The position numbers were made by a program, and so were the translations under genes. Below, piece by piece: positions 6,249 through 39,029 of a stretch of 45,907 nt of DNA; the first letter of the stretch is position 1, and each line of letters opens with the position of its first letter. The notes under the pieces are model-generated. The model searched no databases. It saw nothing but the letters and a program-made list of their open reading frames with translations, and was not told the origin of the DNA. The DNA comes from a virus. Where the stretch lies: positions 1-45,907 of IMG/VR virus record IMGVR_UViG_3300046007_006036. One strand, given 5' to 3'.

Positions 6249-6401
6249 GTGGATGCAAAATCAAAATACTCGAGCATACAAATTCGCAATTCTATAAAAG
6301 AAGAATTGGCAAACTATTGTCAAGAAAACGGATATAAATTGAGCGGATTGATAGAAAAACTTATATTAAATCATTTAACTGGAAGTTTAGGTGTTTCGTG
6401 A
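6249..6401 (+). CDS. Small ribbon-helix-helix-like protein
   Basis: This 50-residue frame starts at GTG, with GAGA a few bases upstream, and ends in a GTGA overlap with the first glycan gene. The sequence has a short strand (YSSIQIRNS) followed by two helices (IKEELANYCQENG and SGLIEKLILNHL), the layout of MetJ/Arc ribbon-helix-helix DNA-binding proteins. Such proteins bind DNA as dimers and repress transcription, often of their own operon. As first gene of the island it could regulate it. No ATG is available in frame after the stop at 6231; the tight overlap with the next gene supports the reading. Confidence 0.62.
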   Translation: MDAKSKYSSIQIRNSIKEELANYCQENGYKLSGLIEKLILNHLTGSLGVS

Positions 6402-7783: not shown

Positions 7784-7792
7784 AGGTTTCAC

Positions 7793-9229: not shown

Positions 9230-9236
9230 GGATGAA

Positions 9237-11179: not shown

Positions 11180-11187
11180 GGCATAAA

Positions 11188-11949: not shown

Positions 11950-12677
11950 GATACTCAATAATAATACCATACAGAGACAGAGAAACACATTTAAGTATAC
12001 TGATACCAAGATTGCAAGAAGTATTCTCCGGAAAAGATTATGAGATAATAATTTCGGAACAAGATAATGATGATAACTTTCAAATATCATGTGTTCAGAA
12101 TGTAGGATATGGAAAATCAAATGGCGATATTGTTATATTTCATCAAGTAGATTATGTTCCTGCAGACGATGTTTCATATGAAGTAGATGATATTCCGGTT
12201 CTTCCTGCAAGGGTTGGTATATTCCTCGATAAAGATAATAAGTCTCCAAGGGAATATACAGACATACCTGCGGGCTATCGTAAATGGTCTAACGAAATTG
12301 ATAGTAGATTTTATGGTGGAGTTATTTGCATGAAAAGAGAACACTTTGAAACTATCAATGGGTTCAATCCAAAGTATCGTGGTTGGGGTAATGAAGATGA
12401 AGATTTGCGTGAAAGATTTGTTTGGGCGAATATACCCGTAAAAAGAAATGAACTCGGAACATTCTATTGTTTATATCACGAAGACAATGGCGATATGAAT
12501 AAAAAAGATGATGACGGTAGAAAAGATTTCTTTGATGGAAAAAAATACTACATAGAAAATGCTTTCAAAGAAAGACATATTGGTTTTACAAATCTTATAG
12601 CCGATATTGAAGAATATGATGTTGGTATTCAGAATGTAAGATGGATAAAAAGCAAAAATTATGAGGTCATAGAATAA
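11946..12677 (+). CDS. GT7-like (beta-1,4-galactosyltransferase-type) enzyme
   Basis: This 243-residue protein has IIPYRDRETHL at residues 5-15 and FYGGVICMKREHFETINGF with GWGNEDEDLRER about 25 residues later. These two blocks are the N- and C-terminal signatures of GT7 galactosyltransferases and chondroitin synthase-type enzymes (GWG-x-ED-x-D). It probably adds a hexose or HexNAc using an inverting mechanism and Mn2+. The central DxD-type site would be in the HQVDYVPADD stretch. Confidence 0.82.
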   Translation: MRYSIIIPYRDRETHLSILIPRLQEVFSGKDYEIIISEQDNDDNFQISCVQNVGYGKSNGDIVIFHQVDYVPADDVSYEVDDIPVLPARVGIFLDKDNKSPREYTDIPAGYRKWSNEIDSRFYGGVICMKREHFETINGFNPKYRGWGNEDEDLRERFVWANIPVKRNELGTFYCLYHEDNGDMNKKDDDGRKDFFDGKKYYIENAFKERHIGFTNLIADIEEYDVGIQNVRWIKSKNYEVIE

Positions 12678-12678
12678 T

Positions 12679-13641
12679 ATGAAAAAATTAAACCTGTATA
12701 CATTTCATAGAGGTATTGCAAATCATAGATTTGATGCTCACAATACAAATGAAATAAAAAAAATACTAAGCAAAAAGTATGAAGTCAATCACTATGATAT
12801 GAATGGTGAGGATTCATTTAGATATAAGAATGATTGTGATGTCTTAATAAATCAGGGTTCTATTGTTATATTTGAATTTGATGATACAAAAAAATTTAAG
12901 ACTTTTGATTTCGGTGATGCACCAACACTAACTGTGCAATTATCCAAATCTAAAAATTTTATTGGAGCTGCAATAGGACAGTATAATCAACAACTGTGGG
13001 ATCACATAATAGAAAATAAAGAATTACTAGATAAAATAAAACCAAGTGTTTATCCAGAAAGTTGTTGGAATTTTGGAATAGAAAATTATGAAACAATAAA
13101 AGAATATAGAAATTCAATAGAATTAGACAAAAGATTATATTGGCGTGGTAGCATATATCGTAATCCTAATATGGTAGAATTTAATAGGAGATTGTCTATA
13201 CAAATTTTAAACAGTAAATTGGATAGTTTTTATTTTGGTGATAGTCCATTATTGTTTGATGATTACATCCAAGAGGCAATACAATTTAAACTTGCATTAT
13301 GTTTTGGAGTTGGTGGTGGTTATGTATGTGGTGATTTTTGTTTTAGAGATATAGAAATGTATGGGATGGGAATACCAACTATAAGACCAAAATATGCAGT
13401 TCAATCATCCGATGAACTTATTCCAGATTTTCATTACATATCAGTTGATTGTGAATTTGACCAAACATATAGGTATAAAAATCCAGAATTACTTGCAGAC
13501 AAAATAATAGAAAGATACAATCAGGTAATAAACGATGATGACTACTTGAAATTTATTTCAAATAATGCGAGAGACTGGTATATTAAAAATGCATCTGGTC
13601 CTAATATAACTAATAAAATTATTGATACATTGGAATTGTAA
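12679..13641 (+). CDS. Putative glycosyltransferase (exostosin/GT90-like style)
   Basis: This 320-residue protein has YWRGSIYRNPNMVEFNRR near residues 154-171 and a glycine-rich GVGGGYVCGDFCFRD block near 214-228 followed by MYGMGIPTIRP. A tryptophan-arginine-glycine start and a terminal donor-side block of this sort occur in GT90/CAP10 and exostosin-like enzymes. The family assignment is tentative. The gene starts one base after the previous stop, as expected in this coupled operon. Confidence 0.55.
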   Translation: MKKLNLYTFHRGIANHRFDAHNTNEIKKILSKKYEVNHYDMNGEDSFRYKNDCDVLINQGSIVIFEFDDTKKFKTFDFGDAPTLTVQLSKSKNFIGAAIGQYNQQLWDHIIENKELLDKIKPSVYPESCWNFGIENYETIKEYRNSIELDKRLYWRGSIYRNPNMVEFNRRLSIQILNSKLDSFYFGDSPLLFDDYIQEAIQFKLALCFGVGGGYVCGDFCFRDIEMYGMGIPTIRPKYAVQSSDELIPDFHYISVDCEFDQTYRYKNPELLADKIIERYNQVINDDDYLKFISNNARDWYIKNASGPNITNKIIDTLEL

Positions 13642-13643
13642 TA

Positions 13644-14273
13644 ATGTTAAAAGAACTTGATTTGAGAGATTTGAAATCCGATTTAAATTTACAGTTTAAA
13701 GGTTTAATACAAGTTGGAAGTTTTGTATCAAAAGAATTTTCAAAACTAAAAGAACTTGGTATTTCAGATTTTATATTTGTTGAAGCGAATCCAAATATAA
13801 TTCCACAGTTAAAAGAAAACGTTGATAATTCGTGTCTTATATTTAATGAATTGATTTCTGATACAGACAATCTTGAGTATGAGTTTTACATATCGAATCA
13901 TCTGCAGTCATCATCAATGTTGAAGTTCGATAAACATTCACACTATTATCCGAATATGTCTACTGTAATTGATACTATAAAATTAAAGAGTATAAAACTT
14001 GACACTTTAATAGAAAGGGAAAACATAGATATTAAAAAATATAATACTCTAATGATTGACGTGCAGGGTGCCGAGTTATTAGTAATAAAAGGTTTTATGA
14101 AAAACATAAACAACATAGATTACATATACACCGAATTAAATTTCGATAGAATGTATGATGGTTGTATGTTGGAACCTGAGTTCACAAAACATATGAAATC
14201 TATTGGTTTTGATTTAATAAAATACTTTGATACCGGAAATGGTTGGGGTGATGGTTTATATGTTAGGAGATAA
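13644..14273 (+). CDS. FkbM-family SAM methyltransferase, copy 1
   Basis: This 209-residue protein has GLIQVGSF as SAM motif, FIFVEANP as the acidic second strand, and the FkbM signature LMIDVQGAELLVIKG near 136-150. FkbM enzymes O-methylate sugars or similar hydroxyls. Within this island it most likely caps or decorates a glycan residue. A second copy lies at 18534. Start ATG is two bases past the upstream stop. Confidence 0.85.
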   Translation: MLKELDLRDLKSDLNLQFKGLIQVGSFVSKEFSKLKELGISDFIFVEANPNIIPQLKENVDNSCLIFNELISDTDNLEYEFYISNHLQSSSMLKFDKHSHYYPNMSTVIDTIKLKSIKLDTLIERENIDIKKYNTLMIDVQGAELLVIKGFMKNINNIDYIYTELNFDRMYDGCMLEPEFTKHMKSIGFDLIKYFDTGNGWGDGLYVRR

Positions 14274-14277
14274 TACA

Positions 14278-15009
14278 ATGCAAAATATACCAATTATAGT
14301 TAGTAGTTGTGATAAGTACAGATACCTTTGGGATATTCAGTTACAGTTGTTTAATAAATACTGGAATGATTGTCCTCACAAAATATATTATTTATCTGAA
14401 AATTCCGAACTGCCTGTTTTTGAAAGTAAATTAAATTTAGAAAATATAAAGATGGGTATACAGACAAGCGGACCTTCGGATTGGTCTTATATGCTTAGAA
14501 TGTTTTTGAACAACCTTGACTCAGAATACTTCATATACATGCAAGAAGATTATGTTTTAAACGATTATGTCAATCAAAATAAATTAAATAAGTTGATAGA
14601 TTATGTTATTTCAAATGAAATAAATTATGTTAGATTTATTACGTCTCCTCCTGGAAACGGAGATATTATTTTAATAGATGATGATATATCTATCAGAGAA
14701 ATAGAAAATAATATGCAATGGAGATCCAGTTTAATGACTGCTATTTGGAAAAAAAGTTCTTTCATAGAGTTATTAAATAGTGATATGAACATAACACCAT
14801 GGCAATTTGAACATATAAATTCATCTAATATCGAAAAATTTTATTGTTTGGATTTGGATGACGATGGTGAAACTGATATTATACCATTTATTGGCATATA
14901 TGGTTCATCAAATGGACATGGGATATATCCACAAGTTGTTGAATTTTTAAAAAGTCATAATTTGAAAATGATTAACGGTAGTGAAATAAATTATGAGATA
15001 AGACTATGA
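14278..15009 (+). CDS. Putative GT-A-like glycosyltransferase
   Basis: This 243-residue protein starts at the ATG at 14278, which has AGGAG 8 bases upstream; a longer frame to 14227 overlaps the FkbM gene and was rejected. It has IPIIVSSCDKYRYLWD at the N-terminus and IYMQEDYVL near 88-96, where QED may be the metal site. A short C-terminal IGIYGSSNGHGIYP block follows. The pattern is like phage glycosyltransferases that have not been assigned to a CAZy family. The stop overlaps the following start. Confidence 0.6.
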   Translation: MQNIPIIVSSCDKYRYLWDIQLQLFNKYWNDCPHKIYYLSENSELPVFESKLNLENIKMGIQTSGPSDWSYMLRMFLNNLDSEYFIYMQEDYVLNDYVNQNKLNKLIDYVISNEINYVRFITSPPGNGDIILIDDDISIREIENNMQWRSSLMTAIWKKSSFIELLNSDMNITPWQFEHINSSNIEKFYCLDLDDDGETDIIPFIGIYGSSNGHGIYPQVVEFLKSHNLKMINGSEINYEIRL

Positions 15010-15383
15010 TGGTTGATGTATCAAACGGAGAACTTCTTGATAAACTTTCTATATTAAAAATAAAATTAGAAAATATAAAAGATGAAAACAAACTTGTTAA
15101 TATAAAAAAGGAGTTTGATATATTAACATCTGTATCTAATTCTTTGTTTTTAAAATATGATATAAAAGATATGTTCGATAGTTTATTTCAAATAAACTAT
15201 AAACTGTGGCAGATAGAGGATTCAATTCGTGATAAAGAAAGAAAAAAAGAATTTGATGAAGAATTTGTTTTTTACGCAAGAAATGTGTATATTACAAATG
15301 ATTTAAGGTCTGATATAAAAAAACAAATAAATAATAAAACAAATTCTGAAATTGTAGAGGAAAAATCATATGAGCGGTACTAA
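15006..15383 (+). CDS. DUF6165 family protein
   Basis: This 125-residue protein begins VDVSNGELLDKLSILKIKLE and ends EIVEEKSYERY, with LWQIEDSIRDKE and VYITNDLRSDIKKQIN in between. This is the DUF6165 pattern: a small helical protein that I know from glycosyltransferase loci. Function is unknown. Its position immediately before, and overlapping, a GT9 gene suggests the two products act together. A second ATG at 15009 is an equally possible start. Confidence 0.75.
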   Translation: MMVDVSNGELLDKLSILKIKLENIKDENKLVNIKKEFDILTSVSNSLFLKYDIKDMFDSLFQINYKLWQIEDSIRDKERKKEFDEEFVFYARNVYITNDLRSDIKKQINNKTNSEIVEEKSYERY

Positions 15384-16275
15384 ATGTTTGATTGTTACAC
15401 ATGGATTTTTTGGAGATATAATTTTTGCAAGTTCTATTGCAAAAAGATTAAGGCATGAAAATCAATTTAGTTTTGTTGATTATCTAATAGGTTTTCCACA
15501 AGTTGCAAGACTTGTTAAGAACAACCCGTATGTGAATGATGTGTATGTTTCAGAAATACCATTACCGTCACCAACACATAGTAAAATAGATGTAACAAAA
15601 TATGATAGAATTGTTAAATTAGAACCATTATCTTTTTTAGAACCACCAACTATTGAGTTCCAGAAACATGCGGGTGTTAGAAATCCTGTTTCATCATATC
15701 GAGTTTATACGGATTTCCAATTTGATTTGTTTATGAAAACGGAATATAAAGAATCAAACCCATTTGACAAAAATAAAAAAACTATCGCGGTTATGCGTAA
15801 TTGGAAACCAAAGACATATCTTTTTACCAAAGAAGAATACGATAGAGGTATTGATGTGCCAAATCTCGGATATGGTGGAAAACATAGAAATGTTGAATGG
15901 ATAGTTGATAAACTCAAAGAAAAATTTAACATACTATTTGTTGGTGTTGATCCAGATGTTAGCCAATATCAAACACAATTTGTTCCAGATGAATCTTTTG
16001 AATCTATTTTGTTTCAATGTTCTTTAATTAAATACTGTGATGCATTTATTGGAACAGAGGGTGGACTTTGTAATCTCGCAGCCGGAGTTGGAACAAAAAC
16101 TATAATAACCGGAGATTATGTGCATCAACTGTATGGACCAAATGGTGTTATTAAAAAAATAGAAGAACCAAAATTGGGACCAAAGTATTACTTTCCAGAT
16201 GCAGGTCATGTTACACTTGATCCTTTCTTAACGGATGAAGAAGTTTATGAACAAATAGTAAAGGAATTAGAATAA
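15370..16275 (+). CDS. GT9-like (heptosyltransferase-type) glycosyltransferase
   Basis: This 301-residue protein has the GT9 layout: LIVTHGFFGDIIFASSIAKRL at the N-terminus, KIDVTKYDRIVKLEP, a FNILFVGVDPD strand, and the donor-site IGTEGGLCNLAAGVGTKTI near 226-244. GT9 enzymes usually transfer heptose or a related sugar from an ADP- or nucleotide-linked donor to a lipopolysaccharide core. GAGGA precedes the ATG. It overlaps DUF6165 by 14 bases and the next gene by one base. What it decorates here is open. Confidence 0.82.
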   Translation: MSGTKCLIVTHGFFGDIIFASSIAKRLRHENQFSFVDYLIGFPQVARLVKNNPYVNDVYVSEIPLPSPTHSKIDVTKYDRIVKLEPLSFLEPPTIEFQKHAGVRNPVSSYRVYTDFQFDLFMKTEYKESNPFDKNKKTIAVMRNWKPKTYLFTKEEYDRGIDVPNLGYGGKHRNVEWIVDKLKEKFNILFVGVDPDVSQYQTQFVPDESFESILFQCSLIKYCDAFIGTEGGLCNLAAGVGTKTIITGDYVHQLYGPNGVIKKIEEPKLGPKYYFPDAGHVTLDPFLTDEEVYEQIVKELE

Positions 16276-16997
16276 TGGATTTAATCTATAATTACTTTGT
16301 GTTGGGATATAACGCTATAAATTATTTTGAACAATGGTATGACTTTAATCAATTTACAAATACAAATTTGCGTATAATAGATAATGGAAGACAATCTTCA
16401 TCCGAAAAAATAAATCCATATATTATACATAAAACAAAACAAAACATAGGTTGTGCTGGTGGGTGGAATCTGATATGTGATATTGGTTTTAAACATTATG
16501 GTTTTGAAAAAATAATAGTAGGACAAGAAGACGCGCGAGTTTCTGAATCTATATTCGATGCTCTATTAGAAGAGTGTAATCCCAATACATTATGTGGTAC
16601 ATTCAATAACGGTTTTACCTTTTCAACATTTGCTATTCATAAAGATACTTTTGAAAGAATTGGTAGATTTGATGAAAACATTGTTTATGTTGGATGTGAG
16701 GATAACGATTATCAGTATAGATGTGAATTAAATGGTGTAACGGTAAAGTCATTAGGAATATCCAATCAATTTAATTGCAGTATTGCTAATAATGATGATG
16801 TTAAACCACCAGCAACATCACCTGCTAATGCAAATTATGTAAATGCAAAGTGGGGTAACTACACATACAAAACATCATTTAACGGAAATAATGTACCAAA
16901 ATATAGTGAGTGGTTTATTAAAATGTATGGTCATACAGACATTTGGCCGAGTGAAAATGAATATGAAAAATTTTTAAAAAATAAAGAGGACTTATGA
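16275..16997 (+). CDS. GT2-like glycosyltransferase
   Basis: This 240-residue protein has an N-terminal YNYFVLGYNAINYFEQW, then the GT2 loop NIGCAGGWNLICD, then VGQEDARVS in place of DxD, and the acceptor-side block IGRFDENIVYVGCEDNDY. These last two are typical of family 2 rhamnosyl- or other glycosyltransferases. AAGGA precedes the start. The start shares one base with the previous stop. Confidence 0.75.
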   Translation: MDLIYNYFVLGYNAINYFEQWYDFNQFTNTNLRIIDNGRQSSSEKINPYIIHKTKQNIGCAGGWNLICDIGFKHYGFEKIIVGQEDARVSESIFDALLEECNPNTLCGTFNNGFTFSTFAIHKDTFERIGRFDENIVYVGCEDNDYQYRCELNGVTVKSLGISNQFNCSIANNDDVKPPATSPANANYVNAKWGNYTYKTSFNGNNVPKYSEWFIKMYGHTDIWPSENEYEKFLKNKEDL

Positions 16998-17575
16998 AAA
17001 CAACAATTTATTTGGACAATGAAACATTAAACGATATAAACATGAATGATGATCTAAAAGTAATAAATTGTTACGGTGAATACTATGACAGACCAAGTGG
17101 AGAAGAACATTATAGATTGTTAAAATATCTTGCAAAAAACATTGAAGGTGACATAACAGAAATAGGAACTCATTGTGGAACATCTGCAGTAGCACTTGCA
17201 ACATCATCCGATTATGAAGTTTTTACGTATGATATTGAAAATCTTAAAACAAATGATTTATCTCATATAAAAAATCTTACATTTAGATTGCGTGAATTTA
17301 ATAATGATGTTGATTACAGAGAAAAAATCTTAAATTCAAAAATGATATTCATAGATGCTCCACACGATGGCAATTTTGAAATCATGTGTTACAATTGGTT
17401 AATTGAAAATGATTACAAAGGAATTACTGTTTGGGATGATATTCATTTGAATACAGAAATGGAAAACTTTTGGAATAGTGTAACTCATAATAAAATAGAT
17501 GTTACGAATTATGGTCATGTAACCGGAACAGGAATAATCTTTTTTTCAGATGATGTGGAGATTGGTTTAATATGA
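16994..17575 (+). CDS. Class I SAM methyltransferase (Methyltransf_24-like)
   Basis: This 193-residue protein has DITEIGTHCGTSAVALA near residues 53-69 as SAM-binding loop, YDIENL as second strand, and MIFIDAPHDG as fourth. That order is shared by Methyltransf_24 and cephalosporin-hydroxylase-like enzymes that act on sugars. No FkbM signature is present, so it is distinct from the two FkbM proteins of this island. It overlaps both neighbours by four bases. Confidence 0.68.
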   Translation: MKTTIYLDNETLNDINMNDDLKVINCYGEYYDRPSGEEHYRLLKYLAKNIEGDITEIGTHCGTSAVALATSSDYEVFTYDIENLKTNDLSHIKNLTFRLREFNNDVDYREKILNSKMIFIDAPHDGNFEIMCYNWLIENDYKGITVWDDIHLNTEMENFWNSVTHNKIDVTNYGHVTGTGIIFFSDDVEIGLI

Positions 17576-18531
17576 AGATAGCTTTTCACAGTAATCAATT
17601 GGGTGTGAGGGGAACAGAAATTTCTTTATATGATTATGCATTTTACAATAGAGAAATTCTTGGAAATAAATCTATAATAGTTTCAGATAGAAATGCGGAT
17701 ATGTCTGCTTACGAAAAATTTAATAGAGAATTTGAAGTTATATTATACGATAGATTTGAAGAAGTGATACCAATTTTACATTCAAAAAGAATTGATGTTG
17801 CTTATTTTCAAAAGTCTGGCCAATATGATGGTAAATTGATTCCAAATATGAAGAACGTTGTTCATTCTATATTTCAATTTCATCAACCACATGGTGATGT
17901 ATATTCATACATATCCAAATGGTTGTCAAATAAAATGTCAAATGGCGTAAATCCATATGTTCCGTATATTGTAGATTTTTTGAAATATGATCACCAAATG
18001 GATTATAGAGAGTTTTTAGGAATACCAAAAGATGCATTTGTATTTGGGTATTATGGTGGACCTACTTCTTTCAATATAGAATTTGCAAAGAAGGCGGTAA
18101 TTGATATTGCAACAAAGTATAAAGATATTTACTTCTTATTTATGAACTCGGAACAATTCTGTGAGGGTATTGATAACGTTATATTTTTACAATCAACTAC
18201 TGATATGGAAAGAAAGGTTGGATTTGTTAATACTTGTGATGCGTGTCTTCATGCCAGAAACGGTGGTGAGAGTTTTGGTTTAACTGTTGCTGAATTTTCT
18301 GTTAAAAATAAACCAGTGTTTACAACAACTTATTGTACTGATCCATTATGCGATGGTGCACATCTTGAAATGTTGGGTGATAAGTGTGTATTGTATTCTG
18401 ACTATGATGATTTGGTACAAAAGATACTAAATGCAAAAGAAATAATTTCTTCTAAAAGTGATTGGAATGCTTATAGAGAATACTCTGCTGAAAATGTAAT
18501 GAATATATTTAAGAATGTTTTTTTAGGATAA
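17572..18531 (+). CDS. GT4-like glycosyltransferase
   Basis: This 319-residue protein starts MKIAFHSNQLGVRGTEISL, a GT-B N-terminal loop with the conserved GTE. FVFGYYGGPTSFNIEFAK is the second-domain start, and NGGESFGLTVAEFSVKNKP near 225-243 is the donor site with its two glutamates. The protein is shorter than the GT4 enzymes at 7793 and 9237 but has both domains. Confidence 0.82.
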   Translation: MKIAFHSNQLGVRGTEISLYDYAFYNREILGNKSIIVSDRNADMSAYEKFNREFEVILYDRFEEVIPILHSKRIDVAYFQKSGQYDGKLIPNMKNVVHSIFQFHQPHGDVYSYISKWLSNKMSNGVNPYVPYIVDFLKYDHQMDYREFLGIPKDAFVFGYYGGPTSFNIEFAKKAVIDIATKYKDIYFLFMNSEQFCEGIDNVIFLQSTTDMERKVGFVNTCDACLHARNGGESFGLTVAEFSVKNKPVFTTTYCTDPLCDGAHLEMLGDKCVLYSDYDDLVQKILNAKEIISSKSDWNAYREYSAENVMNIFKNVFLG

Positions 18532-18533
18532 TA

Positions 18534-19145
18534 ATGTTAATAAATTTTCAATATCTACAAAATCTATCCAACTTGAGCATAACAAGTGTACTTGATATTG
18601 GTGCACACTTTGGTCATTTTACATTATCTATGCATGATATTTTTCCGGATGCACGTTATCACATGATAGAAGCAAACGGTAATTGCGAAGAAACATTGAA
18701 ATCAATAGAATTTGCATCATATGATATAACATTATTATCAGATTTTGAAAAAGATGTTTATTACTATATGAATAAAAATGATTTGACATCAACTGGAAAT
18801 TCTTATTACAGAGAATTAACAGAACATTTTAATGATGAAAATGTAATAGAAGTTTTAGTTAAGTCTAAAACACTTGATGGTTTATTTCCGAATACTAAAT
18901 TTGATTTGATAAAATTAGACACACAAGGATCAGAAATAGATATTCTTAAAGGTGGAAGTGAATTGTTAAAATTTTCAAAATATGTTTTGATGGAATGTGC
19001 AATAATTGAATATAATAAAAATTCACCTAAAATTGATGATGTTATTTATTACATGAATCAAATTGGTTTTACAAAAAATAAATCAATATATGATCATATA
19101 ATGAATGGTGTCTTAATGCAACAAGATATTCTATTTACAAAATAA
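18534..19145 (+). CDS. FkbM-family SAM methyltransferase, copy 2
   Basis: This 203-residue protein shows VLDIGAHFGHFTLSM near residues 19-33, YHMIEANG as second strand, and IKLDTQGSEIDILKGG near 124-139, the FkbM signature. It differs strongly from copy 1 at 13644, so the two probably act at different positions or sugars. AGGA precedes the ATG. Confidence 0.84.
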   Translation: MLINFQYLQNLSNLSITSVLDIGAHFGHFTLSMHDIFPDARYHMIEANGNCEETLKSIEFASYDITLLSDFEKDVYYYMNKNDLTSTGNSYYRELTEHFNDENVIEVLVKSKTLDGLFPNTKFDLIKLDTQGSEIDILKGGSELLKFSKYVLMECAIIEYNKNSPKIDDVIYYMNQIGFTKNKSIYDHIMNGVLMQQDILFTK

Positions 19146-19157
19146 TTTGAGTTAATT

Positions 19158-20141
19158 ATGAAGATACTTTTTATAGCAAATAATAAACAAAATGATTTCT
19201 TATCCGATGCGGTGTTTCATGGACTACTGTGTATGGATAATGTTGAGGTTGTTGATTACAACCCATTGTGGTATATGTACAATGATATTGGCAAGAATAC
19301 GTTAGTTAATAGATTTCACGGCAGAGGATTTACATATTATGCATCTTTACCGCCAAACAATGTTGATAGAAATGACATAGAAAATAAAATAAGAAATAGG
19401 TATTTTGATACTATAATATATGGTAATATACAAAGAAATTCGGATTTGAAGGAAATTGTATTTCAGTATTACAATGAGGATAATATAATAGTTTTGGATG
19501 GCCAAGATGAAACATCGTTATCAACCGATTACATATTAAATACAATATATTTTAAACGAGAATTTATACTCGATGATTATTACAAATATCCTTTCATAAA
19601 ACCAATATCATTTGCTCAACCACAAAACAAGATAGTCGGTGGTATTGTTCAAAAGGAAAAATTAGTAGCTCATGTTATTCCAGGAGTATCGGAAACATTT
19701 ATATTTACAAATGAAGATGATTACTTTGAAGACTATGCGGTTTCTTTGTTTGGGTTTACTTGGAAGAAATCTGGATGGGATTGTCTAAGACACTATGAGA
19801 TAATATCAAGTGCATGTATGCCTTTGTTTTTGGATATAGAAAAATGCCCACCAACTATATGTAGTACATATCCAAAGGATATTTTAATAGAATACTATAA
19901 AAAATCTGGTTTGTATGATATATTCAATATGGGTGGTGAATTTGAATACGATGAAAGAAATACTATGATAACAAATAGGGATCTAAATTTAATAAATAAT
20001 TTGGAAATTGATGATAATTTTTATAGATTGTATTCAGAGTATATGGAAAAACTTATATCATATACAAAAACAAAATTAACAACAAGAAGTTTGGCAGAAT
20101 ATGTTTTAAGTTTTGTTAAAAAATATGGTAATGACTTATGA
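19158..20141 (+). CDS. Putative glycosyltransferase-like protein
   Basis: I do not recognise a specific family for this 327-residue protein. It begins MKILFIANNKQNDFLSD, like a GT-B Rossmann domain, and has FGFTWKKSGWDCLRHYEIIS followed by CMPLFLDIEKCPPT, which resembles the C-terminal half of exostosin-type or GT-B enzymes that bind the donor. Position, strand and coupling to the next gene (ATGA overlap) make a glycan role likely. Confidence 0.5.
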   Translation: MKILFIANNKQNDFLSDAVFHGLLCMDNVEVVDYNPLWYMYNDIGKNTLVNRFHGRGFTYYASLPPNNVDRNDIENKIRNRYFDTIIYGNIQRNSDLKEIVFQYYNEDNIIVLDGQDETSLSTDYILNTIYFKREFILDDYYKYPFIKPISFAQPQNKIVGGIVQKEKLVAHVIPGVSETFIFTNEDDYFEDYAVSLFGFTWKKSGWDCLRHYEIISSACMPLFLDIEKCPPTICSTYPKDILIEYYKKSGLYDIFNMGGEFEYDERNTMITNRDLNLINNLEIDDNFYRLYSEYMEKLISYTKTKLTTRSLAEYVLSFVKKYGNDL

Positions 20142-20827
20142 AAATAATTTATAGAATATCCGATGCGGGTTACAATAAAATAAAACCAGGTTACATAACA
20201 AATGAAAACTGTTTAAGAAATGCCGTTGGAGTATTTGGTAAAGATAATTTCCATGTTATTGCCGATAATATATCAGATACTACAAAAGAAATGATATTGA
20301 AATATGTTGATGATGTACAAATAGTTTCGGTTGGTAATGGTGCGGGGACATTTAATTTAGCATTAGATTTGGCACTAAAGCAAGATGACAATTTGATTGT
20401 ATATTTTTTGGAAAATGATTATCTACATAAACCAAATTCAATTGATATAATTAAGGAAGGAATAGAACTTGGTGCAGAATATATTAGTCTCTATGATCAT
20501 CCGGACAAATACATACCGGCAAGTCGAGGTGGTAATCCACAGATAGATGATGACGGTGGTGAATATACAAAACTATTTTTATCAAAATCATGTCATTGGA
20601 AGATTACGAACAGCACAACAATGACATTCGCATCAACTGTTAAGATATTAAAAGAGGATGAAACCATTTTAAGAAAATGGACAAACAGAGGACATTATCC
20701 TGATGACTATAAAATGTTCTTGGAATTAAGAGAAAAAAATCGTATATTAGTAACTTCGGTTCCAGGTTATTCAACTCACGGCGAGACTGCTTGGTTATCA
20801 CCATTAACAGATTGGAGTAAAATATGA
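20138..20827 (+). CDS. Putative GT-A-like glycosyltransferase
   Basis: This 229-residue protein has MKIIYRISDAGYNKIKPGY at the N-terminus, a long GNGAGTFNLALDLAL helix and IVYFLENDYLHKP near 87-99 where ENDY takes the place of a DxD motif. The ending HGETAWLSPLTDW is seen in several phage-encoded glycosyltransferase-like proteins. The exact family is not known to me. It overlaps both neighbours by four bases. Confidence 0.55.
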   Translation: MKIIYRISDAGYNKIKPGYITNENCLRNAVGVFGKDNFHVIADNISDTTKEMILKYVDDVQIVSVGNGAGTFNLALDLALKQDDNLIVYFLENDYLHKPNSIDIIKEGIELGAEYISLYDHPDKYIPASRGGNPQIDDDGGEYTKLFLSKSCHWKITNSTTMTFASTVKILKEDETILRKWTNRGHYPDDYKMFLELREKNRILVTSVPGYSTHGETAWLSPLTDWSKI

Positions 20828-21612
20828 TTTCAGTAATAATACCTTCGTACAGAAATCCTAAATGTTTGGATATTTGTTTGAAGTCTGCGTTGAAAAACCA
20901 AACTTACGATAATGAAATAATAGTTGTAATTGATGGGTTCGTTGAAGAATCACAACACATCATTGATGAATACAATAACAGAGTTTCTTTTATACAATTA
21001 GAACAGAACTCTGGTATGCAACATGCACTCAATGTTGGTGCATATAATGCGAATAACGAATGGATATTGATAGTAAATGATGATAATGTTTTTCCGAAAG
21101 ATTGGGACACTATTCTTGAAAAAGATTTTGAAGATAAGTTAATCATAACACCAAATCAAATTGAAAGAACGCCAAGCATATTTAATTTTGTTACGCTTAA
21201 CTTTGGTGGTGTAGATAATTTTGATTTTAACAGATACACAGAAGAAGAACAAAATCATAGAGAAGATTCATTAACAAATGATGGTGAGATATTTCCATTC
21301 ATTATGCAGAAGAAATACTATATGGCTGTTGGTGGGTTTGACACACTATATGATTCGCCTTTCATTTGTGATTGGGATTTTTTCCTGAAATTAGAATTGA
21401 TTGGATGCATGTTTTTAAGAAGTAGGAAGTTAAACTTTTATCACTTTGGAAGCATGGCAACAAAAAATGGTTCCGAGTCAAATAGATTTAAAGAAAGTGA
21501 AATGAATGCCGCAGAAACATTCGTCTATAAATGGGGATTTGATCCATTCAGAACAAAAGAAAATTCACATTCACCGAAAGGTAATATAATTAAAGGAATA
21601 CGATATGAATAA
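20824..21612 (+). CDS. GT2 glycosyltransferase
   Basis: This 262-residue protein is a clear GT-A family 2 enzyme: MISVIIPSYRNPKCLDICL at the N-terminus, EIIVVIDG, QNSGMQHALNVGAYNA, and the metal-binding VNDDN near residues 83-87. FDTLYDSPFICDWDFFLKLE is the acceptor-side helix. It overlaps the epimerase gene by eight bases. Confidence 0.88.
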   Translation: MISVIIPSYRNPKCLDICLKSALKNQTYDNEIIVVIDGFVEESQHIIDEYNNRVSFIQLEQNSGMQHALNVGAYNANNEWILIVNDDNVFPKDWDTILEKDFEDKLIITPNQIERTPSIFNFVTLNFGGVDNFDFNRYTEEEQNHREDSLTNDGEIFPFIMQKKYYMAVGGFDTLYDSPFICDWDFFLKLELIGCMFLRSRKLNFYHFGSMATKNGSESNRFKESEMNAAETFVYKWGFDPFRTKENSHSPKGNIIKGIRYE

Positions 21613-22606
21613 ACAAACTGTTTTAATTACTGGAGGTGCTGGACTAATAGGTTCAAGACTTGCAGATTGGATTATTGAAAATCAAACAAACTATGAGGTC
21701 GTTATAGTTGATAATCTATCAGGTGGTTACATTGAAAATGTTAATGAAAATGCAATCTTTTACAAAGTTGATTGTGTTGATAGGAAAGGTATAGATGATA
21801 TATTCGATAAACATAAACCAACTTATGTGTATCACATGGCCGCTTATGCAGCAGAAGGATTGTCTCCGTTCATTCGATGTTTCAACTATGAGAATAACCT
21901 ATTGGCAACTGCCAACATTGTGAACAACTGTATTAAACATGATATAAAAAGATTGGTATTCACATCAACGATGGCAGTCTATGGTCATGGCAATCCACCA
22001 TTTGATGAAAGTCATCAACCTGCACCGATAGATCCTTACGGTGTTGCAAAGTTTGCCTGCGAACAAGACATACAGATTGCAGGTGAACAACACGCATTAG
22101 ACTGGTGTATAATAAGGCCACACAATGTTTACGGTATGAAACAAAACATTTGGGATAAATATAGAAATGTATTGGGGATATGGATGTATCAGGTTCTCAA
22201 TAATAAACCAATGACTATTTACGGTGACGGTAATCAAGTTCGTTCTTTTAGTTACATAGATGACTGTCTCGAACCACTTTGGAAAGCTGCCGTTGATACT
22301 AGAGCTTCAAAGGAAATAATAAATCTTGGCGGAACACATGAACAGAGTATCAATTTTGCTAATGAAGTTTTGCGTTCTGTCATAGGTTATGGTGATACTG
22401 TTTATTTGGAACCAAGACATGAGGTAAAGTATGCTCATCCAACTTGGGACAAGTCAATTAGATTATTGGATTACCGAGATAATACATTACTCGATGAAGG
22501 TTTGAGACAAATGTGGGAATGGGCAAAACAACAACCAATGAGAGACCAGTTCGTATGGAGTGAATACGAATTGGATAAAGGCATATATTCATTTTGGAAA
22601 AACTAA
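21605..22606 (+). CDS. NAD-dependent sugar epimerase/dehydratase (extended SDR)
   Basis: This 333-residue enzyme has the Rossmann loop GGAGLIG at 10-16, DNLSGG, the catalytic YGVAK at 145-149 with a serine about 25 residues earlier (FTSTMAVYG), and RPHNVYG near 172-178. These are features of UDP-glucose 4-epimerase-type extended SDRs that make or interconvert nucleotide sugars. It probably supplies a donor for the island's transferases. Exact substrate cannot be set. AAGGA precedes the start. Confidence 0.9.
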   Translation: MNKQTVLITGGAGLIGSRLADWIIENQTNYEVVIVDNLSGGYIENVNENAIFYKVDCVDRKGIDDIFDKHKPTYVYHMAAYAAEGLSPFIRCFNYENNLLATANIVNNCIKHDIKRLVFTSTMAVYGHGNPPFDESHQPAPIDPYGVAKFACEQDIQIAGEQHALDWCIIRPHNVYGMKQNIWDKYRNVLGIWMYQVLNNKPMTIYGDGNQVRSFSYIDDCLEPLWKAAVDTRASKEIINLGGTHEQSINFANEVLRSVIGYGDTVYLEPRHEVKYAHPTWDKSIRLLDYRDNTLLDEGLRQMWEWAKQQPMRDQFVWSEYELDKGIYSFWKN

Positions 22607-22621
22607 TTAGAGAGAAGTTAT

Positions 22622-23458
22622 ATGAAAACAATAGGAATTGTAGGACAAGGATTTGTAGGAAATTCTGTAAAAGAAGGATTAAAAAATCACTTTAAAATTG
22701 AAACATTTGATTTGATTGAAGAAAAAAGAACAGTAAAAACTCTTGAAGACTTATTCACAAAATCTGATATACTGTTTGTTTGTCTACCAACACCTATGAA
22801 ACTAACAGGTGAATGTGACATAAAGATTGTTGAAAATGTATTTAGTCAATTAAATGAATATGGTAAAAAAATTGTTATACTAAAATCAACAGTTCCACCT
22901 GGAACTTGCAATGTTCTTGCCGGTAAATATAAAAACCTAGATGTTGTATTTAATCCAGAGTTTTTGACCGAAGCAAATGCAGTTAAAGATTTCATAGAAC
23001 AAGACAGAATTGTAATAGGTGGTGGTTCAGAGGAAGTATTGGAAACAGTAGAGACATTATTTAGAGTTGCATTCAAATCCATCCCCATTATCAAAACGGA
23101 TAGAAAGACAGCTGAAATGGTAAAATATGTTACAAATTGTTTTCTTGCAACCAAAGTATCTTTTGCCAATAACGTATATGACATTTGTAAGAAATCTGGA
23201 ATAAACTACGATGAAGTTATTGATATTGCAAAACATGATAAAAGAATTGGTAATAGTCACTGGATGGTTCCTGGTCCTGATGGCGATAGAGGTTATGGTG
23301 GGCATTGTTTTCCAAAAGATATGAAGGCACTTGTTTACTATGCTTCCACTCTAGGTTACTACCCATTACTTATTGATAGTGCAATAAAAGTGAATGATAG
23401 AATAAGAACAGATAGAAATTGGGAAAATATGAAAGGTAGAGCAGTATCGGATGAATAA
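22622..23458 (+). CDS. UDP-glucose/GDP-mannose dehydrogenase-like, C-terminally short
   Basis: This 278-residue protein has the NAD-binding GQGFVG at 8-13, VCLPTP, LKSTVPPGT, FNPEFLTEANAVKDF and the catalytic-cysteine motif GYGGHCFPKD with Cys229. These are signatures of UDP-glucose/GDP-mannose 6-dehydrogenases, which oxidise a nucleotide sugar twice to a uronic acid. Full-length enzymes run to about 400-440 residues; here the C-terminal UDP-binding domain is missing, although the frame ends cleanly. It may be an active short form or an enzyme with altered substrate. It is the last gene of the island. Confidence 0.85.
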   Translation: MKTIGIVGQGFVGNSVKEGLKNHFKIETFDLIEEKRTVKTLEDLFTKSDILFVCLPTPMKLTGECDIKIVENVFSQLNEYGKKIVILKSTVPPGTCNVLAGKYKNLDVVFNPEFLTEANAVKDFIEQDRIVIGGGSEEVLETVETLFRVAFKSIPIIKTDRKTAEMVKYVTNCFLATKVSFANNVYDICKKSGINYDEVIDIAKHDKRIGNSHWMVPGPDGDRGYGGHCFPKDMKALVYYASTLGYYPLLIDSAIKVNDRIRTDRNWENMKGRAVSDE

Positions 23459-27127: not shown

Positions 27128-27550
27128 ATGAATTATATCATTGCCTTATTTCTCGCAGTTGGCGTATTAACTGCGAGTGATACCAAACCACATCTACTTA
27201 AATCTATTGTTAGTGGTGGTAATGGTAATGCAACACTTGGTCAAGTGATTGCAGGTTACAAGAATAAGTTTCATGTGGGTATTCGTATTCCAAAAAGGGT
27301 TGCGTTATCCGTAGAGGAAACTAATAATGTTGGATTATTGGCATACCCAAATCCAACGAGAGACGGTGTAGTTTCATTCGGTATTGATGGTATTGAGTCA
27401 ATACAAGTAACAGATGTATATGGTAGAGTAGTAACCGAAATAATGAACGGTGCTTCAAATACAATTACATTGCCAAATCGTGGTGTATTCTATATCAGAA
27501 TTACAACATGGGATAGACAAGGATATTCAACAAAAGTTATTTTTAATTAA
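27128..27550 (+). CDS. Secreted protein with T9SS C-terminal sorting domain
   Basis: This 140-residue protein has a signal peptide at residues 1-17 (MNYIIALFLAVGVLTAS) and a C-terminal domain from about residue 70 that matches the type IX secretion (Por) sorting signal: LAYPNPTRDG (71-80), IQVTDVYGRVV (92-102), GVFYIRI (119-125) and the terminal KVIFN. The middle 45 residues are basic and contain no known domain, so most of the mature protein is the sorting domain itself. In the FCB group such domains target proteins through the outer membrane and are removed and swapped for a surface anchor. AAAGGAG precedes the ATG. It is followed by a second exported protein. Its role is unknown; surface display by an infected cell is the simplest reading. 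Confidence 0.85.
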   Translation: MNYIIALFLAVGVLTASDTKPHLLKSIVSGGNGNATLGQVIAGYKNKFHVGIRIPKRVALSVEETNNVGLLAYPNPTRDGVVSFGIDGIESIQVTDVYGRVVTEIMNGASNTITLPNRGVFYIRITTWDRQGYSTKVIFN

Positions 27551-27564
27551 AAAATGAGGAAAAA

Positions 27565-28740
27565 ATGAGACAAGTTATTTTGGCAATCTTTACTTTGATT
27601 GCAGTAAATGCATTTGCAGGAACAAACATTCAGTATCAAGCACACGCACCTGCCGGAACAGATATTAACTCTAAGTTTTCAGTTTACATTGCAGACAGTT
27701 CTTTCGATGAAGTATCACGATTGAATACTGCCGCTCTTTGGTATCGTGAGAATGTTGATATTGAAATCAACAACGGTATCATCAATTATCTTATTGAGAA
27801 TGTTGCAGACAATATCTTGATTGATAACTACGGTAAGAAACTTTTTGTTTATGCTTATGTGAACGGTGTATCACTTGGAAGATTACAAATCAGAACAGTT
27901 CCTTATGCACTTCTTTCAACTTATGCACTTGAAGCTGCTGAGGCAAAGACTGCTCAAACTGCAAATAAGGCAAAGTTTGCTGATAGTTCTAAATCATCTG
28001 CACATTCCGTAACTGCTAATAGTTCACTCACATCAAAATATGCAGATTCAACCAATGTCAGTAATCATTCAAATACATCTAGATTTGCAGATACTACCCG
28101 TGCCGCTGGTAAAGCAACTCTTTCAGACTTGGCAACTTATTCATCAACCGCTGCTCACTCTGCTAAATCAGATACATCATTCTATTCCTTAAATGGAATC
28201 CATGCTAAATTTGCAGATACATCAGTATTTGCTTTTGATGCAGACCATGCTAACTTTGCATCCACTTCTGCTTTTGCTACGAACTCTGCTCGTTCAGTTC
28301 TTGCAGATACTGCAAAAACATTAGTTGATAACTCAATCGAACATCGTCATTTCACAACGGAATCTGTAAGACTTTCTTCACTCGAAGGTAGTTCAACTGC
28401 ACCGGTTGGTTCATATGCCGTTCGTGGTGTTGGTGGTATATCATGGGAAGTGAACCCACAACATAGAACTAGTAGTGTCACAGTTCATACAGTCGCACCA
28501 ACAACTATCGCTGGTAATTCAAGATGGATCGTCAGTCGTGTTGCGGTGGACTACAACATTGTTTCCCCTTCAGGTCCAAGTGTTGGTCAACTCGTCACCA
28601 TTTTCAATGGATCAACTGCAAATACTGTTACAATTAGAAATGTAGTTTGGGGAATTGATACTGCACTTGATTATACAATTTTCCCCAATCAATCAAGAAC
28701 TCTTTGGTTCAACGGAACCAATTGGGTTGTAGTAGAATAA
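27565..28740 (+). CDS. Secreted fibre-like protein with FAD repeats
   Basis: This 391-residue protein has a signal peptide (MRQVILAIFTLIAVNAFA, residues 1-18), a globular N-domain to about residue 120 ending VPYALLSTYALEA, then six imperfect repeats around [KRN][FY]AD[ST] (residues about 130-255) that should form an elongated trimeric stalk. It ends in a compact domain finishing LWFNGTNWVVVE, a style seen at phage fibre tips. The PYAL followed by AKFAD style is common in exported proteins of Bacteroidota and Ignavibacteria. A signal peptide on a fibre is unusual, because virion fibres assemble in the cytoplasm. It has no T9SS domain. GAGG precedes the ATG. Confidence 0.72.
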   Translation: MRQVILAIFTLIAVNAFAGTNIQYQAHAPAGTDINSKFSVYIADSSFDEVSRLNTAALWYRENVDIEINNGIINYLIENVADNILIDNYGKKLFVYAYVNGVSLGRLQIRTVPYALLSTYALEAAEAKTAQTANKAKFADSSKSSAHSVTANSSLTSKYADSTNVSNHSNTSRFADTTRAAGKATLSDLATYSSTAAHSAKSDTSFYSLNGIHAKFADTSVFAFDADHANFASTSAFATNSARSVLADTAKTLVDNSIEHRHFTTESVRLSSLEGSSTAPVGSYAVRGVGGISWEVNPQHRTSSVTVHTVAPTTIAGNSRWIVSRVAVDYNIVSPSGPSVGQLVTIFNGSTANTVTIRNVVWGIDTALDYTIFPNQSRTLWFNGTNWVVVE

Positions 28741-28757: not shown

Positions 28758-29048
28758 ATGTATGAACCTTTTTTAGGCATGATAATACAGTTTCCATATA
28801 ATTTCGCACCAAAAGATTGGACATTTTGTCATGGACAACTTTTACAAATTCAACACAATGAAGCATTGTTTTCTTTACTTGGAACAATGTATGGTGGTGA
28901 TGGTATTCATAATTTTGGATTACCAGATTTGAGACCAAAGGATGAACATGGTAATCCATTGCATATTGAATTTGGAGACATCTATCAAGGGAAACCTTAT
29001 ATGGAATACTCTATTTGTCTCAATGGTGTTTACCCATCAAGAAACTAA
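28758..29048 (+). CDS. Tail collar (MdpB-like) domain protein
   Basis: This 96-residue protein matches the phage tail collar / microcystin-dependent-protein domain: GMIIQFPYNFAPKDWTFCHG at residues 6-25, QIQHNEALFSLLGTMYGGDG and FGLPDLRP after it. This domain is found at the tips of tail fibres and in contractile injection systems. It is a single short domain, less than the usual 160-180 residues, and may be a fibre-tip subunit or accessory for the preceding fibre-like protein. AAGGAG lies upstream; the longer frame to 28704 overlaps the previous gene and was rejected. Confidence 0.8.
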   Translation: MYEPFLGMIIQFPYNFAPKDWTFCHGQLLQIQHNEALFSLLGTMYGGDGIHNFGLPDLRPKDEHGNPLHIEFGDIYQGKPYMEYSICLNGVYPSRN

Positions 29049-29574: not shown

Positions 29575-30180
29575 ATGGACATTACTAAATTAAATGGTAA
29601 ACTACCAGAAGGAGTTTATAGGGAAATACCTTCTGTCATAGAAACATTTAAGATTGATACACCAGTAAGATTATCACACTTCCTGGGTCAATGCGCACAT
29701 GAAAGCGGTGATTTTAAGTTCGTTACTGAAAACTTAAATTATTCAACAAAAGGTCTATTGGCAACATTTCCAAAGTATTTCAAGCAGCCAGGACTTGCCG
29801 AGGCATACGCCAGACATCCTGAAAGGATTGCATCAAGAGTTTATGCAGACAGAATGGGAAATGGTGCAGAAGGAACATCGGATGGTTGGAAATTTAGAGG
29901 CAGAGGTTACATACAATTGACTGGTAAAAGTAACTACACTGCATTTGATAAGTTTGTCAATGAAGATATTATTCGTGAACCAGATTTGGTAGCTAAAAAA
30001 TATCCATTGTTATCTGCAGCATGGTTCTTTCATAAGAACAAATTGAATACAATATCAGATAAAGGATTAACTGAAACTGTTATACTTGAATTAACAAAAA
30101 GGATAAATGGTGGAACAAATGGTTTACAAGACCGTATTAAATATACAACAAAATTTGGTAAGATACTCGGAGTGATTTGA
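29575..30180 (+). CDS. Endolysin, GH19 chitinase/lysozyme-like
   Basis: This 201-residue glycoside hydrolase family 19 enzyme cuts the glycan strand of peptidoglycan. LSHFLGQCAHESGDFKFVTE places the catalytic acid at Glu43 and the second carboxylate near Glu52; NYSTKGLLATFPKYF and GRGYIQLTGKSNY follow in the expected order. It has no signal peptide, so it needs a holin or pinholin to reach the wall. Holin-like genes lie on the opposite strand at 39204 and upstream at 26349. The stop overlaps the next TTG and the next ATG is two codons on. Confidence 0.9.
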   Translation: MDITKLNGKLPEGVYREIPSVIETFKIDTPVRLSHFLGQCAHESGDFKFVTENLNYSTKGLLATFPKYFKQPGLAEAYARHPERIASRVYADRMGNGAEGTSDGWKFRGRGYIQLTGKSNYTAFDKFVNEDIIREPDLVAKKYPLLSAAWFFHKNKLNTISDKGLTETVILELTKRINGGTNGLQDRIKYTTKFGKILGVI

Positions 30181-34597: not shown

Positions 34598-36226
34598 TTA
34601 GAACATACCGCCGCCCGATGCCAAATCATATTGAGGTTTGTCATTTGGTTCTGGTTTGTTCACAATAGTGGCTTCCGTTGTCAATAGTAAACTTGAAACC
34701 GATGCCGCATTTTGTAATGCAACTCTTGATACCTTAGTTGGATCAATCACACCGGCTTTAATCAAGTCTTCATATTTTTCTGTTCTAGCATTAAACCCAT
34801 TAGAGTTCTTACTTTCTTTTATTTTATTAACAATAACCGATGGTTCAATTCCTGCATTAGAAACGATTTGACGGATTGGTTCTTCAATCGCTCTTCTGAT
34901 GATTGATATACCTGTGTCTTGGTCGTGATTCTCTCCTTTCAAATTATCAAGGACTTTAACTGCCCTTAAATATGCAACACCACCACCTGGAACAATTCCT
35001 TCTTCAACTGCCGCTCTTGTTGCATGGAGTGCATCTTCGATTCGTGCTTTCTTCTCCTTCATTTCAACTTCGGTTGATGCACCAATTTTGAGAACTGCAA
35101 CACCACCTGCTAATTTAGCAAGTCTTTCTTGTAATTTATCTCTTTCATAATCTGCGGTACTCTTTTCTATTAGTGCTTTAATTTCACCGATTCTCGCTTT
35201 AATATCTGCACTATCACCACTACCTTCAACGATTGTTGTTTTCTCTTTGTCTATGGTAATCTTCTTTGCGGAACCAAGATGTTGGATTCCAACTGTTTCT
35301 AACTTGTAACCTTGTTCCGATGAAATAACAACACCACCTGTTAGTGTTGCAATATCATTGAGTAGTGCGGTTCTGAAACTTCCGAACTCTGGTGCCTTAA
35401 CAGCGGCAACTTTCAATATACCACGTAGTTTGTTCACAACCAATGTTGCAAGTGCCTCACCTTGTATATCTTCTGATATAATAAGCAAGGGTCTTCCTGT
35501 CTGTGCAGTTTTTTCAAGGATTGGTAGAATGTCTTTTACAGTTGCAATCACTTGGTCATGTATTAGAATATATGGATCATCCAATACTGCCTCCATTGTA
35601 TCTTGACTTGTAACAAAATATGGTGACAGATAACCTCTTTGGAACTGCATACCTTCCACAACATCCATTGATGTCTCAGTACCTTTTGCTTCTTCAACGG
35701 TGATTACACCGTCTTTACCAACTCGTTCAACCGCATCCGCAATAAGATTTCCTATTGCAGAATCATTGTTTGCAGATATAGTACCAACCTGTGCTATTTC
35801 AGTTTTACCAGTAACTTCTTTACTCATTGATTTCAATTCTTCTGTAATCTTTTCAACAGCCAAATCAATACCTCTTTTTAAGTCCATTGGATTTGCACCT
35901 GCAGTTACATTCTTTAAACCCTCTCGAACTATTGCTTGTGCAAGAACAGTTGCTGTTGTTGTGCCGTCACCGGCCACATCGCTTGTTTTTGATGCAACTT
36001 CTCTGACCATTTGTGCACCAAGATTTTCAATTGGATCATCCAATTCGATTTCTCTCGCAACAGTTACACCGTCTTTTGTAACGGTTGGTGAACCCAATTT
36101 TTTATCAATGATTACATTTCTACCTTTTGGACCAAGAGTAACTTTTACTGCATTGGCAAGTTGATCAACTCCACGCTTTAATGCTGAGCGTGCTTCAACA
36201 TCAAATGTTATTATCTTTGAACTCAT
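34598..36226 (-). CDS. groEL: GroEL chaperonin (60 kDa)
   Basis: This 542-residue chaperonin forms the double ring that folds proteins in an ATP-driven cycle. ATPase residues are in place: [10 protein letters not shown] with Asp52 and GDGTTT at 86-91 with Asp87; the hinge-region [17 protein letters not shown] is present. Length matches bacterial GroEL, but the C-terminus is [12 protein letters not shown], with only one glycine-methionine unit instead of the usual GGM repeats. A strong GGAGG precedes the ATG. It follows groES in the same operon and ends at a strong terminator. It probably assists folding of the phage's own capsid or tail proteins. It looks like a complete, functional gene. Confidence 0.97.
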
Positions 36227-36246
36227 AACTTTAAAAACCTCCGTTT

Positions 36247-36540
36247 TTATTTTGAATATAAAATTGCTAAAACTTCACTCTCACTTAAAAGAAGTAATGA
36301 TTCATCATCAACTGTTACTTCAACACCCGCATTTCTACGGAACAGAATTTCATCGTTTACCGAAACCTTCGTTGGAACTACATTACCATTCAACATTGTA
36401 ATTCCGTCTCCTACTGAAAGAACATTTCCTTGAACTGGTCTTTCCTGTGCAGAGTCAGGAATAATAATTCCAGATGATGTTCTTTCTTCTGCCTTTCTTG
36501 GTCTTACAAGTATTCCATCTCTTAATGGCAATAATCTCAT
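36247..36540 (-). CDS. groES: GroES co-chaperonin
   Basis: This 97-residue co-chaperonin caps the GroEL ring. It has [19 protein letters not shown] at the N-terminus, a mobile loop with the hydrophobic GIIIP anchor near 24-28, [11 protein letters not shown] in the middle and the [11 protein letters not shown] strand. All elements of a ten-kDa chaperonin are present, so the phage supplies a complete pair rather than a T4 gp31-type substitute. AAGGAG lies seven bases before the ATG. The gap to groEL is 20 bases. Confidence 0.96.
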
Positions 36541-38447: not shown

Positions 38448-39029
38448 TTATCGTTGGTCTAACAGAGCAAAGTCTGTTATTCGGAAATGGTTGTATGGAT
38501 TTATCGTTCTATTACGATGCCATACTCCCCCACCATTCCATTGATTACCACTACGGCCAGATGAAGTATTACCTTCTATGGTAGTTCCACTGGCTCCTTG
38601 CCATTTGTCTACAAATCCAACATGACCAAACATGGTTGTTCCTCTACGCCAAACCACTACCGAACCCATCGGTATCTTCATATTAGATTGTAAAACTTTT
38701 GTTGCTTTGATTGTCTTGTTCTTGGATATGAAGTGTCTCGCCAATCCAGAACGAACACGCATTGTCTTTATGTCGGCACTATCAAGACAAAAGGAAACGA
38801 ATGCTGCACACCAGGGATTACCTGGTCGAAGTCCTACGGATTTCAAAAACTTTGTAACCCAATATCCTCCGTTGTTTCCTACTTCTTTTGTTCCAACAAA
38901 ACCATATGCAATGTTTCTAACTCTTTCACCGTCTGTCTGATTAACTATTTGAGAAGCAGAGAGCAGCTGTGACGATGTTAGCAAACAACCAAATAGCATA
39001 AGCGATAGGATTTTCTGCAAGTATTTCAC
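38448..39029 (-). CDS. CHAP-domain endolysin with signal peptide
   Basis: This 193-residue protein starts at GTG 39029, supported by AAGGAGG eight bases upstream. It has an N-terminal hydrophobic segment (MKYLQKILSLMLFGCLLTSS) that acts as a signal or signal-anchor, then a CHAP (papain-like) domain with NPWCAAFVSF (Cys74), FGHVGFVDKW (His136) and IEGNTS (Glu152/Asn154). CHAP enzymes cut peptidoglycan as amidases or endopeptidases. With an export signal it could be a SAR-type or periplasmically active lysin, independent of a large holin. LFGC in the signal is not a good lipobox. The start lies inside the upstream membrane-protein gene (89-base overlap). Confidence 0.85.
   Translation of the reverse strand: MKYLQKILSLMLFGCLLTSSQLLSASQIVNQTDGERVRNIAYGFVGTKEVGNNGGYWVTKFLKSVGLRPGNPWCAAFVSFCLDSADIKTMRVRSGLARHFISKNKTIKATKVLQSNMKIPMGSVVVWRRGTTMFGHVGFVDKWQGASGTTIEGNTSSGRSGNQWNGGGVWHRNRTINPYNHFRITDFALLDQR

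Follow-up and report, generated by a model that had tools for sequence, protein, structure and literature searches.

A phage gene pair coding a predicted type IX secretion cargo protein and a tail-fibre-like protein: a putative surface-fibre cassette with a likely remote relative on Bacteroidota chromosomes

Why a phage should code for a small protein carrying the sorting signal of a bacterial type IX secretion system (T9SS) is the question raised by an open reading frame of a 45.9 kb virus record, the whole of which was analysed and is named the window hereafter. The frame, gene 1, extends exactly from 27128 to 27550 on the plus strand, runs from ATG to TAA, is preceded by an AAGGAG motif and codes a polypeptide of 140 amino acids. 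A preliminary description of this DNA presented the product as a protein built almost entirely of a sorting domain and displayed on the infected cell through the host's own T9SS. The following features are distinguished in the gene:

27128..27550, plus strand: gene 1, small T9SS cargo protein and proposed surface anchor (TIGR04183, IMG/VR relatives, purifying selection)
27128..27184, plus strand: signal-peptide-like segment, residues 1-19 (hydrophobic predicted helix 2-18)
27185..27331, plus strand: residues 20-68, a conserved segment near the N-terminus proposed to bind the partner (invariance, low dN/dS)
27341..27541, plus strand: T9SS type A sorting domain, residues 72-138 (TIGR04183 and structural matches)

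The signal peptide is called by eye and from the hydrophobic helix of residues 2-18 in the AlphaFold2 model; the putative cleavage site has small residues at positions -3 and -1, also judged by eye from the sequence. The sorting domain is recognized by TIGR04183 over residues 72-138 of 140 with 32.7 bits (E 5.4e-8), above the curated cut-off of 23 bits, while PF18962, which has a gathering score of 27, aligns to residues 73-136 with E 4.7e-4 but no more than 20.8 bits. The profile evidence expected by the preliminary description was thus obtained with the first family and weakly with the second. T9SS type A domains are immunoglobulin-like seven-stranded 3+4 beta-sandwiches (PMC11285876). The AlphaFold2 model of residues 70-140 is a beta-sandwich (pLDDT 83-89, strands predicted within residues 72-139) that matches this seven-stranded fold, and the eight best PDB matches in structural alignment are all T9SS sorting domains (Z 10.1-7.4). 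They comprise 8glk, 8gl8, 8gl6 and 8glj, solved in T9SS complexes (Z 10.1-8.8), followed by 8qb1, 5ag8, 5m11 and 7pq4 (mirolase, RgpB, PorZ and RgpB by NMR, respectively; Z 8.0-7.4). The first three Foldseek ranks are T9SS sorting domains too. Gene 1 is classed as a T9SS type A cargo on TIGR04183 and the fold, the PF18962 gathering score not being reached, and there is very little doubt that it codes such a cargo. The sorting signal and the fold foreseen in the preliminary description are both borne out, and the presence of a genuine type A domain makes it most likely that the T9SS of the host exports the protein to the cell surface. TIGR04183 has exactly one match per record in 20 virus records, namely the window and 19 relatives, and in each it is the gene 1 homologue; 18 of these 20 phage members score above the cut-off and two below.

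Phage-encoded T9SS cargo has already been published, so that the statement that no phage system of this kind had been described does not hold. Cryophage (Nat Commun 2020) encodes three cargo proteins with a T9SS C-terminal domain, for which superinfection exclusion was proposed (PMC7468147). These genes are like gene 1 in having type A sorting domains and in their proposed use of the host system, but they code an endoglucanase, a GH39 protein and a PA14 protein, in contrast to the 140-amino acid product found here, which is strictly paired with an exported fibre. A crAss-like phage described in 2019 likewise has a T9SS sorting domain in its genome, in this case on a protein with BACON domains, for which no fibre pair appears to be mentioned (PMC6949934). 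The pairing of a candidate anchor with a fibre appears to be new. The genes that follow gene 1 have this organization:

27565..28740, plus strand: gene 2, coding an exported protein of 391 aa that is tail-fibre-like, separated from the gene 1 stop by 14 nt
27619..27906, plus strand: fibre N-terminal beta domain, residues 19-114, ending in ...GRLQIRTVPYAL (pLDDT mostly 70-87)
27907..28374, plus strand: fibre shaft of A/S/D-rich repeats, residues 115-270 (from sequence; low-confidence helix or disorder in the monomer model)
28375..28737, plus strand: C-terminal domain of the fibre, residues 271-391, resembling domains of phage tailspikes and gp9 (structural matches)
28758..29048, plus strand: phage tail collar domain protein, 96 aa (PF07484, E 9.6e-24)

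The fibre also has a signal-peptide-like start, and in 10 of 20 members the residue after the putative cleavage site is glutamine, as in the Q-rule of Bacteroidetes (PMC5837995). No T9SS domain was found in it by TIGR04183 and PF18962 searches, nor by TIGR04183 over the 20 virus records. Residues 301-391 of the monomer model match Solidus gp83 (Z 11.5), CBA120 TSP4 (Z 9.0) and T4 gp9 (Z 7.7), and the fibre probably forms a trimer. Gene 1 is followed directly by the fibre gene in the window and in every relative with enough downstream sequence, a count that leaves out contig L011, which ends too soon. When the scan was made with the fibre instead, the same contigs came up together with one more, L164, and no fibre lacked a T9SS gene directly upstream.

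The gene 1 family is carried by 20 IMG/VR phage contigs, which are metagenomic and mostly fragments, those of the relatives reaching 177 kb; similar phage proteins, whose search the preliminary description had called for, thus exist. The relatives are 41-89% identical to gene 1, with L164 as a more distant contig. INPHARED phages hold no relative of gene 1 or of the fibre, PHROGs gave no family for either, and no relative of the fibre was found in PLSDB plasmids. Whole-gene dN/dS between relatives is 0.13-0.41, showing that gene 1 is a real gene. Its sorting domain makes up about half of the protein and not almost all of it, and the other half is the more constrained. Most of the family's invariant positions, with the pattern GGN..A..GQV...N..H.GIR.P, fall in residues 20-68, where SGGN.NATLGQV.AG..N..H.GIR.P is kept in all relatives; between divergent pairs dN/dS is 0.03-0.31 for this segment versus 0.13-0.33 for the sorting domain, and lower in most pairs. 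AlphaFold2 gives no confident monomer fold for residues 17-69 (pLDDT about 42 for the conserved segment). Two T9SS genes, L008:6001-6420 and L011:6001-6414, are mosaics of the N-terminal half of one phage type and the sorting domain of another, which suggests recombination between gene halves.

The conserved segment of gene 1 resembles that of a family of short T9SS proteins which we take to be common in Bacteroidota. Of 72 evaluable Bacteroidota loci fetched with a probe of this family, 69, a proportion conditional on that family, had the short T9SS protein followed on the same strand by an exported fibre, with gaps mostly of 2-22 nt. The chromosomal type A proteins display the pattern SGGxATGSGGSVSYSVGQV...GVQQPYEI, and the fibres start with MSYQAVIR... 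and have an N-terminal domain that ends in SVPYAL. None of 63 complete chromosomal fibres has a PNP-type sorting motif of its own. Their carboxyl termini vary widely, with exchangeable adhesin-type tips that are Lcl/DUF1566-like, FISUMP, S74-like or collar (some assigned by eye); NCBIfam matches in example fibres are to the Lcl adhesin, FISUMP and the N-terminal domain of MAT fibres, all below the family cut-offs. At control loci with T9SS domains a fibre came next in 0 of 12 cases. Independently of the loci fetched with that probe, the MAT_N profile (NF053851) matched in 49 of 296 genomes at E 1e-5 or better, and a short T9SS-domain protein lies directly upstream at 18 of the 26 evaluable loci picked in this way. 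A literature search largely confined to papers free of subscription found no pair of a T9SS protein and a fibre in phages or chromosomes, no paper on DUF1566 with T9SS and none on phage genomes with Por sorting domains.

The phage and chromosomal pairs are alike in gene order, strand, spacing, signal-peptide-like starts, the presence of a T9SS domain on the first protein only and a beta-rich fibre N-terminal domain ending in PYAL. They differ in that their sequences are remote and that the phage tip is tailspike-like while the chromosomal tips are lectin-like. Searched against 395 Bacteroidota genomes, independently of the probe-fetched loci, the phage gene 1 profile has its best match (E 2.5e-13) at locus L170, where a fibre is next; this member of the short T9SS family is the only one of nine matches covering the N-terminal half. 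Phage and bacterial T9SS proteins align over their full length with E 1.4e-10, a signal that comes mainly from the sorting domain. Taken by itself, the N-terminal half of gene 1 scores 17.0 against the bacterial segment, equalled by 1 of 200 shuffles, and the relationship between the two segments is suggestive only. The profile restricted to this half (A4) had no clear genome match, and patterns derived from the phage profile returned no relative in GTDB genome contigs. For the fibre N-terminal domains, profile alignment of the phage and bacterial sets covers 88 columns with a score of 28.1, the best of 200 shuffles reaching 20.0; a narrower bacterial set aligned at the PYAL end only, the wider one over the full domain. 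Searched directly, the phage fibre N-domain profile had no match at E 1e-3 among 198 genomes. Homology is favoured by set-level scores when these are compared with shuffled sequences, the p-values being set aside since the sequences are related to one another. It is likely, given the fibre N-domain alignment together with the same gene order, spacing and orientation and the same split of functions between the two genes, that the phage pair is a remote homologue of the chromosomal cassette.

The tail collar gene at 28758-29048 is possibly a third, variable gene of the cassette: its product has 65% identity over 57 amino acids with the C-terminus of the bacterial cassette fibre L030, and the gene is present after the fibre in relative L002 and replaced or absent in L005 and L003. 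In the bacterial cassette fibres L030 and L082 the stretch that matches the last 15-18 residues of this protein precedes the collar domain, an arrangement that looks like a circular permutation.

The fibres of both kinds of pair recall the MAT fibres of Bdellovibrio, which have a signal peptide, a conserved beta-rich N-terminal domain and variable phage-like tips (PMC10769870; NF053851). The likeness has limits: the Bacteroidota fibres match NF053851 with E down to 1e-12 but all stay below its curated cut-off of 60 bits, and the phage fibre has no NF053851 match in the phage records. According to the authors of the MAT study, the surface element bound by the fibre N-terminal domain is unknown, and the words "secretion" and "Bacteroid" are absent from their paper (PMC10769870).

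The reading preferred here, with a probability of roughly 0.58, is that the two genes form a phage-borne export cassette, a small, diverged counterpart of the chromosomal surface-fibre cassette of Bacteroidota, in which gene 1 anchors the fibre. In T9SS hosts, Sec and the T9SS carry such cargo to the cell surface. Sec would bring the gene 1 product across the inner membrane, and the host's T9SS, addressed by the C-terminal domain, would take it further; the mature segment of residues 20-68 would remain on the cell surface, where it would act as anchor or docking partner for the N-terminal domain of the exported, probably trimeric fibre. The infected cell would thereby display a phage-tail-like fibre made of this conserved domain and a tailspike-like tip. 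Docking is proposed because the T9SS signal is present on gene 1 only, because no confident fold is predicted for the conserved segment by itself, as would suit a binding peptide, and because the MAT authors hold that the fibre N-terminal domain must bind a surface element which they did not identify (PMC10769870). The balance tips slightly in favour of gene 1 holding the gene 2 product on the surface. As to the benefit, the first guess is that receptors are occupied or masked so that competing phages cannot adsorb, and the second is altered adhesion or aggregation; superinfection exclusion by such masking is the likeliest purpose, yet less probable than not.

The same anatomy could serve another purpose, the pair being a displayed adhesin that sticks infected cells to other cells or particles and not an anti-phage defence. 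The exchangeable adhesin-type tips of the chromosomal fibres and the binding of surface glycans by Bdellovibrio MAT fibres (PMC10769870) point in this direction, but the tip of the phage fibre is one conserved domain and not a variable lectin, and we regard this purpose as rather unlikely. The tip domain is present as a single copy in each of 12 phage records; the idea that it imitates a fibre of the phage's own virion is unsupported, no second copy of the tip being found in the phage records.

A role of the fibre in the virion is conceivable since its tip, folding like tailspikes and T4 gp9, resembles virion parts and a tail collar gene adjoins it. The protein would then be a tail fibre or spike, with the small protein as its export or assembly helper and surface display incidental. 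Virions, however, assemble in the cytoplasm, while both proteins have signal-peptide-like starts and half of the fibres have a glutamine at +1. The pair is also far from the structural genes. This is seen in a relative of 123 kb (G008) with a contractile-tail gene set, in which the pair is found at 23.5-25.1 kb and the genes with PHROGs matches to terminase, portal, major head protein, tail sheath and tape measure at 91-117 kb; the pair is not part of the tail or structural module, the distance to tape measure and sheath genes being ~66 kb or more. On chromosomes, furthermore, such pairs are found across hundreds of kilobases of sequence and have no evident role for a phage. A virion fibre is thus an unlikely identity for the gene 2 product.

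The preliminary description had also envisaged that a lone, nearly bare sorting domain jams the sortase or translocon. As a decoy cargo competing for this machinery, the small protein would shut down T9SS adhesins used as phage receptors, and the fibre would be unrelated to it. Gene 1 is indeed very small and half sorting domain, its predicted fold resembles that of the substrates bound in the T9SS complexes 8glk and 8gl6, and T9SS adhesins were suggested to be phage receptors in Cellulophaga (PMC13288928). But the sorting domain is never alone: the gene is always paired with an exported fibre, a strict association that the decoy leaves unexplained, and pairs of the same kind exist on bacterial chromosomes. 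Residues 20-68 are moreover conserved in every relative under strong purifying selection, a constraint that would be superfluous for a bare decoy. In its original form the proposal is not supported, and a decoy function is improbable. Even less credit is due to a recently acquired host gene pair that is functionless for the phage, a reading to which the host-like architecture might lead but which is contradicted by the retention of the pair, at identities as low as 41-43%, in 20 phage contigs and by dN/dS well under 1 among closer relatives.

The host of the window phage putatively belongs to the Bacteroidota group. A Shine-Dalgarno-like motif precedes 32 of 54 presumed gene starts between 3211 and 45746, versus a background of 7%. 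Use of this motif is unusual for phages of typical Bacteroidia, and the host may therefore be a member of the wider group that uses it, for example one of the Ignavibacteria. Elsewhere in the window, a 17 kb block (6398-23458) contains a gene for an NDP-sugar dehydrogenase, recognized by TIGR03026, together with presumed genes for glycosyltransferases and a sugar epimerase, and synthesis or modification of a surface glycan by the phage is a possibility. GroEL- and GroES-like genes, identified by eye, are neighbours at 34598-36540. A CHAP-domain protein with a signal-peptide-like start (38448-39029) is a candidate exported lysin, separate from the GH19-type endolysin coded at 29575-30180. In different phage contigs of up to 105 kb (L165:1202-8287, also L166-L169), a run of genes for exported proteins is found just upstream of a GH19-like endolysin gene; it codes a 243-amino acid protein ending in a T9SS-like domain and, as judged by eye, putative curli secretion parts (CsgG-like, 237 amino acids).

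If the anchor and fibre reading is true, phages remodel the infected cell surface through the host type IX system with a dedicated anchor-fibre pair, beyond the export of single enzymes. A broader and more tentative view, to which we give somewhat less than even odds, is that a T9SS-exported mini-protein docking a MAT-like fibre with exchangeable tips is a general fibre mount on Bacteroidota, and that phages took over the pair. The small T9SS-sorted protein encoded directly upstream of the fibre would then be a candidate answer, in Bacteroidota, to the question of what holds MAT-type fibres on cells.
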